NCBI GenBank assembly: GCA_018771605.1
Contig: CP076324.1
Coordinates: forward strand, 1,465,700-1,529,699
Direction of reading: 5' to 3'
Length of the DNA stretch: 64,000 nucleotides
From: Aquificota bacterium
GTDB taxonomy: Bacteria; Aquificota; Aquificia; Aquificales; Aquificaceae
The notes below the pieces were generated by a model. The model saw nothing but the letters and a program-made list of their open reading frames with translations, searched no databases and was not told the origin of the DNA. Position 1 is the first letter of the stretch. Every line of letters begins with the position of its first letter. Positions 3,089 through 34,116 of this stretch are shown one piece after another. Made by a program: the position numbers and the translations under genes.

Positions 3089-4086
3089 TCTTAGATAAGC
3101 TTGGTAGAGAACTTCATGACCTAAGAATATCCGTAACGGACAGATGCAACTTCAGATGCACCTTTTGCATGCCAGAGGGCCAGGATTATGAGTTCTTCAG
3201 ACGGGAGGAGATACTTTCCTTTGAAGAGATCACCAAGTTTGTAAGGGCCATAATCCCCCTTGGAATAAAGAAGGTTAGGCTCACCGGTGGTGAGCCACTC
3301 TTAAGGAGAGACCTTGAAAGGCTTATAAAGATGCTCTCAGAGCTTCCCATAGAGGACCTAAGCCTTACCACCAACGGCTTTCTACTAAAGGAAAAGGCAA
3401 AAGTCTTAAAGCTTGCGGGCCTTAGGAGGATAACGGTCAGCCTTCCATCTTTGAAGGATGAGGTATTTTCAAAGCTTGTAGGGAGGAATGTAAAGGTTTC
3501 TCATATACTTGAAGGTATTGAAGAAGCCCTAAGGGTTGGACTAAAGCCTGTTAAGGTGAATGTATGTGTGGTAAGGGGCTTGAACGATGGGGAGATAGTG
3601 GATATAGCCAAGTTTTTCAAAGGTATGGGTGTGGTGGTCAGGTTTATAGAGTTTATGGATGTGGGGAACCTTAACGGATGGTCCTTGGATAGGGTCTTTT
3701 CTGTAAAGGAGATGCTACAGCTCCTAAAGGAACATTTTGAGCTTGAACCTATGGAAAAAAGCTATAGGGGTGAGGTGGCAGAAAGGTACAGGTATGTGGA
3801 TGATGGCGTGGAGGTGGGCTTTATATCTTCCATAACTCAGCCCTTCTGTGGAGACTGCAACAGGCTTAGGCTTACCGCAGATGGAAAGGTACTCACCTGC
3901 CTTTTTGCGCAGGATGGTTATGATGTGAAAAGCATTATAAGGTCTGGAGCTGATGAGGAAGAGATTAGGAAGTTTATATTGCATATATGGTCTCAAAGAG
4001 AAGACAGATATTCAGAAAAAAGGCTTGAGATGTTAAAGGAGGGCATAAGGCCCAAAAAAGTGGAGATGTTTAAGATAGGAGGTTAA
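3085..4086 (+). CDS. moaA: GTP 3',8-cyclase MoaA
   Basis: A 333-residue radical SAM protein that begins the molybdenum cofactor pathway by converting GTP to 3',8-cyclo-GTP. The N-terminal cluster motif is CNFRCTFC, followed by the SAM-binding [11 protein letters not shown]. The C-terminal second 4Fe-4S site is FCGDC with a third cysteine 13 residues on (VLTC), and the protein ends in the diagnostic Gly-Gly (FKIGG). The start overlaps the moaE stop by four bases; an in-frame GTG 15 bases earlier exists but breaks this coupling. Molybdenum or tungsten enzymes such as nitrate reductase or formate dehydrogenase are presumably encoded elsewhere. Confidence 0.95.
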
Positions 4087-29583: not shown

Positions 29584-29656
29584 GGGTCGGTAGCTCAGCT
29601 GGCAGAGCAACGGACTCTTAATCCGTGGGCCGAGGGTTCGAATCCCTCCCGACCCA
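29584..29656 (+). tRNA. trnK: tRNA-Lys (anticodon CTT)
   Basis: A complete 73-base cloverleaf: acceptor GGGTCGG (29584-29590) pairs with CCGACCC (29649-29655), discriminator A at 29656, D-arm AGCTCAGCTGGCAGAGC, anticodon stem ACGGA/TCCGT with loop CTCTTAA (anticodon CTT), and T-arm GAGGGTTCGAATCCCTC. CCA is not encoded. A TATAAT at 29559-29564 lies 19 bases upstream. The convergent glgB gene reads through the antisense of this tRNA. Confidence 0.96.
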
Positions 29657-32683: not shown

Positions 32684-33038
32684 CAAAAGTCTAAGCGGAG
32701 AAGTTGTAGAGCTGTCAGAAGGTTATGCAAAATTGAGGTTAAAAACAGATAGCCGAATGGTGGCGGATGATATGGGTCTCGTGCATGGAGGATTTATCTT
32801 CTCCCTGGCTGACTTTTGCGCCATGGCGTGCGTAAATGAACCCAATGTGGTTCTGGCTCAAGCCAGCATAAGATTTCTAAAGCCTGTAAAAGTTGGGGAT
32901 GAAATCTTTGCGGAGGGGAGGATAATAAGGGAAGAGGGAAAGAAAAGATGGGTACAGGTAGAGGTGAAAAGGGGAGAAGAAAAGGTAGCAGAGGGGGAAT
33001 TCCTCTGCGTGGTGCCAGAAAGGCACGTGTTATCTTAG
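32655..33038 (+). CDS. hotdog-fold thioesterase (PaaI/DUF4442 type)
   Basis: A 127-residue single hotdog-fold protein. The central helix motif is GLVHGGFIFSLADFCA, with the HGG that precedes the hydrolase helix in acyl-CoA thioesterases, and the strands FLKPVKVGDEIFAEGRI follow. It probably hydrolyses acyl-CoA or aryl-CoA thioesters. It begins inside trpF (29-base overlap) and its stop shares four bases (TTAG) with the convergent htpX stop, so no terminator lies between them. Confidence 0.82.
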   Translation: MQLRTHLKIDKSLSGEVVELSEGYAKLRLKTDSRMVADDMGLVHGGFIFSLADFCAMACVNEPNVVLAQASIRFLKPVKVGDEIFAEGRIIREEGKKRWVQVEVKRGEEKVAEGEFLCVVPERHVLS

Positions 33039-33910
33039 TAAGAGTAAGAATAGACTCCCATCTTCCTGGCAAGCTCTTTTAGCCTTTCTATCCTTTTTTC
33101 TGTGGATGGGTGAGTAGAGAAAAGTTCCCATATGCCTTGGCCGGAAAGTGGGTTCTCAATAAAGAGGTGGGCTGTGCCCTGGTTTACCTCTGCGGGTATT
33201 TGATGCACATAGTTGTGTATCTTTTCTAAGGCGCTTGCCAAAGCGAGTGGATCTCCGCTTATCCTTGCTCCAGTTTCATCAGCCATATACTCCCTTGAAC
33301 GGGAAATAGCCATCTGTATTATGGTGGCAATTATGGGGGTTATTATTATCATAGCTATGCTGGCTATGATAGAAAGTGGATTATTATTTTCTTCATCCCT
33401 TGAATGGCCCAAAAGTAAGGCCCATTGGAACATATTCACCAGGTAAGATATAGCTCCAGCTATGGTGGCAGCCATTGTAGCCACAAGCACATCTCTATTC
33501 TTTATGTGTCCTATCTCGTGCGCCAGCACACCCCTTAGCTCACGCTCATCAAGAATCTGCAGTATGCCAGATGTTACAGCTACCGCACCGTTAGAAGGCC
33601 CCCTTCCTGTGGCAAAGGCGTTGGGCTGTTCCATAGGCACCAAGTATATCTTGGGTTTTGGTATGTTTGCCCTTTGGGCAAGATCTTCTACTATCCTGTG
33701 GAGCCAAGGGGCCTCTTCATAGGGTATCTCCCTTGCGCCATACATGGCAAGCACTATCTTATCGGAAAACCAGTAGGCTATAAAGTTCATTATGCCAGCC
33801 AGCACAAGGGCTATGGTCATACCAGTTTTTCCACCGATAAGATGGCCTACAAACAGGAAAAGGCCAGTAAGAGCTCCAAGCAGTATAGCGCTTCTTATAG
33901 CATATCCCAT
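33035..33910 (-). CDS. htpX: membrane zinc metalloprotease HtpX
   Basis: A 291-residue M48 protease of the inner membrane for quality control of membrane proteins under heat or envelope stress. N-terminal membrane helices, then GREIPYEEAPWLH, LVPMEQPNAFATGRGP, the zinc site GVLAHEIGHIKNRD (HExxH), two more helices, and SREYMADETGA with the third zinc-ligand glutamate. I use ATG 33910, eight bases after GGAGG; a TTG seven codons earlier lies in a leader hairpin. It is preceded by a consensus promoter and a 119-base structured leader. Confidence 0.95.
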   Translation of the reverse strand: MGYAIRSAILLGALTGLFLFVGHLIGGKTGMTIALVLAGIMNFIAYWFSDKIVLAMYGAREIPYEEAPWLHRIVEDLAQRANIPKPKIYLVPMEQPNAFATGRGPSNGAVAVTSGILQILDERELRGVLAHEIGHIKNRDVLVATMAATIAGAISYLVNMFQWALLLGHSRDEENNNPLSIIASIAMIIITPIIATIIQMAISRSREYMADETGARISGDPLALASALEKIHNYVHQIPAEVNQGTAHLFIENPLSGQGIWELFSTHPSTEKRIERLKELARKMGVYSYSY

Positions 33911-33918
33911 ATTATTTT

Positions 33919-34029
33919 CCTCCGTGTCCAAGCCCTTTATACAGGCTTGGGCTGGGGTATTTATATCCCGCCTTTCCTGAGATGTGGACTGCCCCAGCAG
34001 GCGGTATTAGTCCACACCCTTCCTTTTTG
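33919..34029 (-). promoter_or_regulatory. structured htpX mRNA leader with three crossing helices (candidate cis-regulatory RNA)
   Basis: Reading 5' to 3' on the minus strand: a TGTGGACT (34016-34009), b CCGCCT (34004-33999), c GCTGGGG (33998-33992), a' AGTCCACA (33990-33983), b' AGGCGG (33973-33968), c' CCCCAGC (33957-33951), then hairpin d CCAAGCC (33950-33944) with GGCTTGG (33934-33928), and the GGAGG (33923-33919). All four helices are perfect (8, 6, 7 and 7 pairs). a-a', b-b' and c-c' cross each other, so they form a pseudoknot or exchange. I match it to no known riboswitch. Confidence 0.6.
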
Positions 34030-34035
34030 TATAGA

Positions 34036-34064
34036 AAGATAAGCATAAGGTTATATCATGTCAA
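34036..34064 (-). promoter_or_regulatory. htpX promoter
   Basis: On the minus strand TTGACA (34064-34059) and TATCTT (34041-34036) are 17 bases apart, the best -35/-10 pair in the window. It predicts a transcript start near 34029 and a leader of about 119 bases before the ATG. Confidence 0.65.
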
Positions 34065-34116
34065 TATCCCTGGGAGGGTGTTTCAAAAGGCGCATTAAAT
34101 TAAAAGGCATTAGAGA

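Follow-up and report, generated by a model that had tools for sequence, protein, structure and literature searches.

In a 64,000-nucleotide (nt) stretch of DNA from a heat-loving Aquificota bacterium (CP076324.1, positions 1,465,700–1,529,699; hereafter the window), the leader of the heat-stress protease gene htpX contains an RNA in which three helices, a, b, and c, cross one another, their strands following as a b c a′ b′ c′. It is near certain that this triple-crossing structure and the family of RNAs that share it are real. Sequence comparisons indicate that the RNA is very probably a relative of the guide-RNA scaffold (omega-RNA or reRNA) of transposon-encoded, CRISPR-like TnpB nucleases, and on balance we favor a reading in which a triple pseudoknot derived from such a scaffold has been domesticated as a constitutive 5′ leader. 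The htpX leader lies on the minus strand and has the following features (coordinates are positions in the window).

34036–34064, minus strand: htpX promoter, with −35 element TTGACA (34064–34059), a 17-nt spacer, and −10 element TATCTT (34041–34036), read from the sequence and recurring in related htpX leaders.
33949–34018, minus strand: core of the RNA family (helices a, b, and c), matched by covariance model R1 (G000:C1:1499648-1499717, 75.1 bits, E 3.8e-22).
34009–34015, extendable to 34019, minus strand: 5′ strand of helix a, GTGGACT, with its partner at 33990–33984; 6 of 8 aligned pairs have double changes in the genus.
33984–33990, extendable to 33980, minus strand: 3′ strand of helix a, AGTCCAC, from sequence and covariation.
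34000–34004, minus strand: 5′ strand of helix b, CCGCC, paired in 106 of 106 copies, with one pair changed from C-G to G-C in 6 copies.
33968–33972, minus strand: 3′ strand of helix b, GGCGG, from sequence and covariation.
33992–33998, minus strand: 5′ strand of helix c, GCTGGGG, with 99% of cells paired and double changes in 6 of 7 pairs.
33951–33957, minus strand: 3′ strand of helix c, CCCCAGC, from sequence and covariation.
33958–33967, minus strand: conserved A-rich strand GATATAAATA between b′ and c′, consensus (A/G/T)ATANAA(A/G)TA in most of 92 distinct copies.
33928–33950, minus strand: hairpin d, CCAAGCC (33950–33944) with GGCTTGG (33934–33928), adjoining c′; 4 of 6 pairs have double changes in the genus.
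33919–33923, minus strand: Shine-Dalgarno (SD) sequence GGAGG, read from the sequence and predicted to be unpaired with P ∼0.8–0.94 at 37–90 °C.
33035–33910, minus strand: htpX coding sequence, 291 amino acids, ATG at 33910–33908 (NCBIfam NF002826, 384 bits, cut-off 369).

An initial annotation of this DNA had proposed the promoter TTGACA-17-TATCTT, which we find on the minus strand; TTGACA-16/17-TATNTT is clear in most htpX leaders of related species, weaker in a few, and located 6–20 nt before helix a. Transcription is predicted to start near position 34028, which would give an htpX leader of ∼118 nt. The annotation had assigned 8, 6, and 7 base pairs to helices a, b, and c. The crossing order that it gave stands, and the sixth pair of helix b (T33999–A33973) is not conserved; in the htpX copy, helix a could be lengthened by two G-U pairs. 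Hairpin d adjoins c′ as had been described (position 33950 is next to 33951), there is no gap between the two in 82 of 89 copies, and in the htpX leader 4 nt separate the hairpin from the SD sequence.

When the htpX leader was compared with 20,000 dinucleotide shuffles, a perfect set of three crossing helices with a summed length at least equal to that observed arose in only 2 of them, in agreement with the earlier judgment that a chance origin was improbable. The nested part of the leader alone folds more stably than its shuffled versions (z-score −2.6). Searches with the leader by blastn returned matches in 42 of 61 related genomes, with several per genome in some. Two segments, AATACCGCC-N-GCTGGGG and GGCGG-NATANAAATA-CCCCAGC, are constant among the copies, and helix a is rewritten together with its complement from copy to copy.

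An alignment of 106 diverse copies was built from a covariance model that contained helix a only and hence was not fitted to b or c. In this alignment, 97.3% of the cells pair (94% in a, 100% in b, and 99% in c), double changes occur in 15 of the 20 pairs, and the covariation score is 0.520, compared with 0.116 for shuffles and ≤0.120 for slid partners. Helix b is near-invariant across the copies, the C-G to G-C swap listed above aside, and a subfamily with b = GCGCC/GGCGC is present in a genome that has 35 copies. In the 13 htpX leaders of the genus, 97% of the pairs form, 10 pairs have double changes, every one of them in a or d (b and c do not vary), and the covariation score is 0.280, compared with ≤0.075 for slid partners. 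A lack of conservation or covariation, which the initial annotation had named as the result that would count against its helices, was found in neither set. The htpX copy became fixed in the genus's common ancestor, and its fold is maintained by selection. Because a, b, and c are kept together across the 106 copies and b and c hardly vary in their spacing, one compact fold is favored over two exclusive folds, the pair of options that had been proposed for this leader.

Approximately 258 copies of the RNA were extracted (G-numbers denote sampled genomes, with G000 the source genome, and L-numbers denote extracted stretches). A covariance model search located the RNA in 88 of 136 sampled Aquificota genomes, representing 24 of 30 genera, with 0–35 copies per genome and two in the source genome; in the class of Caldanaerobacter, it was present in 22 of 37 genomes. 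A pattern scan of 84,980 species genomes yielded at least 118 stretches. The matches listed include Aquificota, Thermoanaerobacter, Caldanaerobacter, Thermovorax, Fervidicola, Thermosediminibacter, Thermosyntropha, Carboxydothermus, Caldicoprobacter, Caldisericum, Thermodesulfobacteriaceae, and Desulfobacterales metagenome-assembled genomes (MAGs). Two pattern matches, L138 (Thiothrix) and L212 (Planctomycetaceae), look like chance; these aside, the named cultured genera among the matches listed are all thermophilic, and among those matches the family is apparently limited to thermophiles. The covariance model found nothing in the genome of pattern match L188. An AT-rich uncultured bacterium (G100, stretches L292–L300) has 24 divergent copies, in some of which c reads GCAGACC/GGTCTGC, with others lacking a clear hairpin d.

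No Rfam 15 family matched the RNA at the gathering threshold and no relevant match was found at E ≤ 10, the best riboswitch match being Guanidine-I at 16 bits against a cut-off of 63; together with the covariation in the copies, this upholds the initial description of a multi-pseudoknot leader without a known riboswitch match. The sole Rfam gathering-level match in the window is a tRNA gene at 29584–29656 on the plus strand. The RNA and its use as a leader are undescribed in the published literature consulted, chiefly the main texts of openly available papers, and nothing recognizable appears in the main text of Lechner 2014 on Aquificales noncoding RNAs or in structured-RNA surveys, including the main text of one that covers Aquificae genomes. 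As far as this literature search reached, the putatively scaffold-derived leader family is new, guide-RNA scaffolds and structured leaders being known kinds of RNA.

In many genomes, the RNA occurs in a long form that includes an additional hairpin, e, upstream; the loop of e is the complement of ACCAGG, which lies at the 3′ end. An open reading frame (ORF) with TnpB-type RuvC sequence is found directly 5′ of this long form. The TnpB-related protein of Thermovorax (487 amino acids) scores above cut-off for TIGR01765 and TIGR01766 and has no PDB relatives by sequence; upstream of tnpB in Caldanaerobacter lies a gene for an IS607 transposase (NF033518, 227 bits). By tblastn, this TnpB is encoded directly upstream of at least 67 of the 258 copies, and 58 of these 67 end in T(A/G/T)ACCAGG. 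Four transposon copies have left ends that all begin at GGAGG, and the sequences flanking them are unrelated. Relatives that lack the core occur in G000, G012, G029, and G023; they retain hairpin e and the pseudoknot between its loop and the right end, with the pairs CAGGG/CCCTG, CCAGGTC/GACCTGG, and GAGGCTG/CAGCCTC (four different complementary sequences were seen overall). The triple pseudoknot thus appears to be one form of the scaffold used by this group of transposons. A scan of viral contigs gave one match adjoining tnpB, on a 172-kb putative viral contig (L301, IMGVR_UViG_3300022514_000030), where tnpB and a long-form copy (3840–3975) lie upstream of an ORF.

The TnpB of IS607 elements is guided by RAGATH-18-derived RNAs and has the transposon-adjacent motif (TAM) 5′-AGGAG, and its reRNA contains a pseudoknot, PK2, formed by a hairpin loop and the final scaffold bases (PMC11061315). 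Our transposon copies resemble that system in their position 3′ of tnpB at the right end, in the pairing of a loop with the last bases before the guide, and in an SD-like TAM (AGGAG there, GGAGG at the left ends here). They differ from it in their three crossing helices, in the TIGR01765-type protein, and in the fact that most copies stand alone in 5′ untranslated regions (UTRs); the lack of a relevant match in Rfam 15 may be a further difference from RAGATH-18-derived reRNA, provided that this family is in the library. The likeness suggests that TnpB may bind core-containing RNAs. The htpX leader is related to such scaffolds but is not itself one: it lacks an adjacent tnpB (present at 67 other copies) and lacks hairpin e, which takes part in the pairing of scaffold end and loop in transposon copies. 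The right end of the core-less IS607-type elements of the source genome is ...TTTTTGAAACACCCTG (stretches L303/L313 and L314–L320). The terminal sequence of these elements, TTTGAAACACCC, is present just upstream of the htpX promoter (34076–34087, minus strand), and this match may mark a transposon-end relic beside htpX.

Neither hairpin e nor tnpB accompanies 165 copies (hereafter solos), among them that of htpX and 34 of the 35 in G022. Many G022 solos start ∼20 nt or less from the stop codon of the preceding gene. A related genome without copies, G029, has empty sites in a ribosomal operon; at the first gene pair, G029 has TAAGGAGGAGAGCAATG where G022 has TGA, the core, hairpin d, and ATG. 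The strict transposon-end sequence is kept in 18 of the 165 solos, compared with 58 of the 67 transposon copies, although a few of these 18 may be transposon copies whose upstream part lies past a contig end or whose hairpin e was missed by the pattern. Since T(A/G/T)ACCAGG would be meaningful only with hairpin e, its presence in the 18 solos favors descent of the solos from transposon ends.

The copies are not specific to htpX. An ORF starts on the same strand within 200 nt of 246 of the 258 copies (median 42 nt after the core), compared with 101 of 238 for the opposite strand, and in 145 of the 165 solos the start codon is ≤60 nt from the core (median 39). The downstream proteins form 168 sequence clusters. 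As read from the sequences, the downstream genes include htpX, ftsH, HSP20, grpE, hfq, rho, and those for translation initiation factors IF-2 and IF-3, ribosomal proteins, RpoA, acyl carrier protein, ferredoxin oxidoreductases, heterodisulfide reductase, and ribosome hibernation. The genes rho, ftsH, trpS, metE, and that for IF-3 recur downstream of copies in distant genomes. The second solo of the source genome (L002 1491–1562, G000:C1:343307-343378) is followed after 41 nt by an ORF whose product, judged by eye, looks like a DhnA-type/class I aldolase, and in a Desulfobacterales MAG, from an unrelated lineage, a long-form copy (L159 214–280) precedes an htpX-like gene.

This range of genes bears on the earlier proposal that the leader is a switch or thermosensor for a heat-stress protease, in which alternative folds would turn htpX on at heat stress. 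Such a gene-specific device would fit the conservation of the htpX leaders in 13 genomes of the genus, the copies before HSP20, ftsH, grpE, and ribosome-hibernation genes, and the competition of the nested minimum free energy fold with b and c. However, the same RNA precedes ∼168 unrelated gene families, a, b, and c are all maintained together, and the RNA is related to the right ends of IS607/TnpB elements. In a nested model, moreover, the probability that the SD sequence is free is ∼0.94 at 37 °C, 0.81 at 80 °C, and ∼0.8 over 80–90 °C, so that it is predicted to be open at 37 °C and no freer in the heat. We consider the switch or thermometer highly improbable, and the proposal is not sustained. 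The nested model likewise gives no support to an SD-occluding thermometer of the ROSE or FourU type, and a ligand riboswitch was rejected because of the ∼168 unrelated gene families, which have no common ligand theme. An exonuclease-resistant RNA acting against RNase J was also rejected for Aquificota; no RNase J scored over the cut-off in the Aquificota genomes searched, the source genome included.

The solos might alternatively be nonfunctional remnants of IS607 elements, similar to miniature inverted-repeat transposable elements, with a structure kept only for mobility. Swings in copy number from 0 to 35 between relatives, near-identical copies within a genome, and lineage-specific presence at orthologous sites are what dispersal of this kind would produce. 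It would not account for a single orthologous htpX copy with compensatory changes across the genus, including genomes with no or almost no such TnpB (none in G006 and one marginal fragment in G013), or for the strict orientation and spacing of the copies relative to start codons, and we regard it as decidedly unlikely. A regulon acting in trans, in which a host protein or TnpB binds the knot in many mRNAs and jointly controls their decay or translation, would be consistent with the conserved unpaired A-rich strand and near-invariant helix b, with the homogenization of copies within a genome, and with the related RNAs that adjoin TnpB genes. Against this, no TnpB of this group was found in G022, G026, G014, G054, or G100 (35, 18, 3, 1, and 24 copies, respectively), the five TnpB-type genes of G022, considered as candidates for a cognate TnpB, have a different right end, and no host protein has been identified. 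A regulon of this type is unlikely.

We instead favor the domestication of a TnpB-derived scaffold as a heat-stable leader, which could have proceeded as follows. In the IS607-type transposons, the RNA would make up the 3′ portion of a presumed guide-RNA scaffold located at the right end. These elements, which encode a TnpB-related protein, insert at the SD sequence GGAGG, a short distance upstream of genes. Scaffold ends without tnpB would then be retained before genes, in Aquificota and elsewhere, with the htpX solo placed between the promoter and the ribosome-binding site. Where −10 hexamers are present in solos, they peak 2–10 nt before helix a, and transcription of those RNAs would therefore start with helix a or close to it. 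The 5′ end would in this way be tied into a compact knot with the SD sequence left open, an arrangement that would protect the mRNA and keep the ribosome-binding site accessible at growth temperature. Duplex energies calculated for 80 °C are still favorable for b (−2.7 kcal/mol) and c (−5.2 kcal/mol). A stabilizing function, either as an mRNA stabilizer or as an insulator of the ribosome-binding site, is a reasoned guess based on this model.

Several points weigh against domestication from transposon ends. Non-promoter solos show no enrichment of GGAGG immediately before the core, contrary to what simple insertion would predict, and the solos are therefore not simply clean insertions. The htpX leaders themselves have no transposon-end vestige. 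Helix a alone is predicted to be only half formed at 80 °C; because it is marginal by itself, the pseudoknot as a whole probably holds the fold at growth temperature. Finally, the core could equally have been captured by transposons from older leaders. Under such a reverse descent, an old leader of thermophiles would have been taken up at some IS607 right ends, where it would help the gene behind the insertion to stay expressed. The IS607 relatives without b and c agree with this order of events, as do the solos, which make up most of the copies and are found also where this TnpB is absent. The 18 solos that keep the transposon-end sequence argue for the opposite direction, and we view reverse descent as the less probable course.

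Among known leaders, the 5′ UTR of Escherichia coli ompA is a 5′ mRNA stabilizer with a structured leader at or near the 5′ end and an open SD sequence; the htpX-type leader differs from it in being pseudoknotted, multicopy, and, among the matches listed, apparently limited to thermophiles. The preQ1 and SAM-II riboswitches are compact pseudoknots in which A-rich strands lie immediately before the SD sequence, features that the RNA described here shares, but its genes have no shared metabolic theme and it has no Rfam match. In TldR and other exapted TnpB systems, a protein and its guide act in trans as a transcription regulator (PMC13418256). Those systems also represent host reuse of TnpB-system parts; here, in contrast, only the scaffold-like RNA would have been kept, as part of an mRNA.

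These results add a structured-RNA family that is large, shows strong covariation, and has no entry in Rfam 15. It is plausible, though somewhat less likely than not, that thermophiles have repeatedly domesticated a guide-RNA scaffold as a general 5′ untranslated element of their mRNAs; insertion at SD sequences would put it ahead of start codons, and its triple pseudoknot would, independently of TnpB, provide a heat-proof leader for housekeeping genes. The family offers testable material on how mRNA 5′ ends survive at 70–90 °C in bacteria without RNase J, and on why IS607 elements with an SD-like TAM insert before essential genes without silencing them. If the proposed descent is true, part of a TnpB guide RNA may persist as an mRNA leader, and RNA-guided transposons would thereby be connected to ordinary gene expression.
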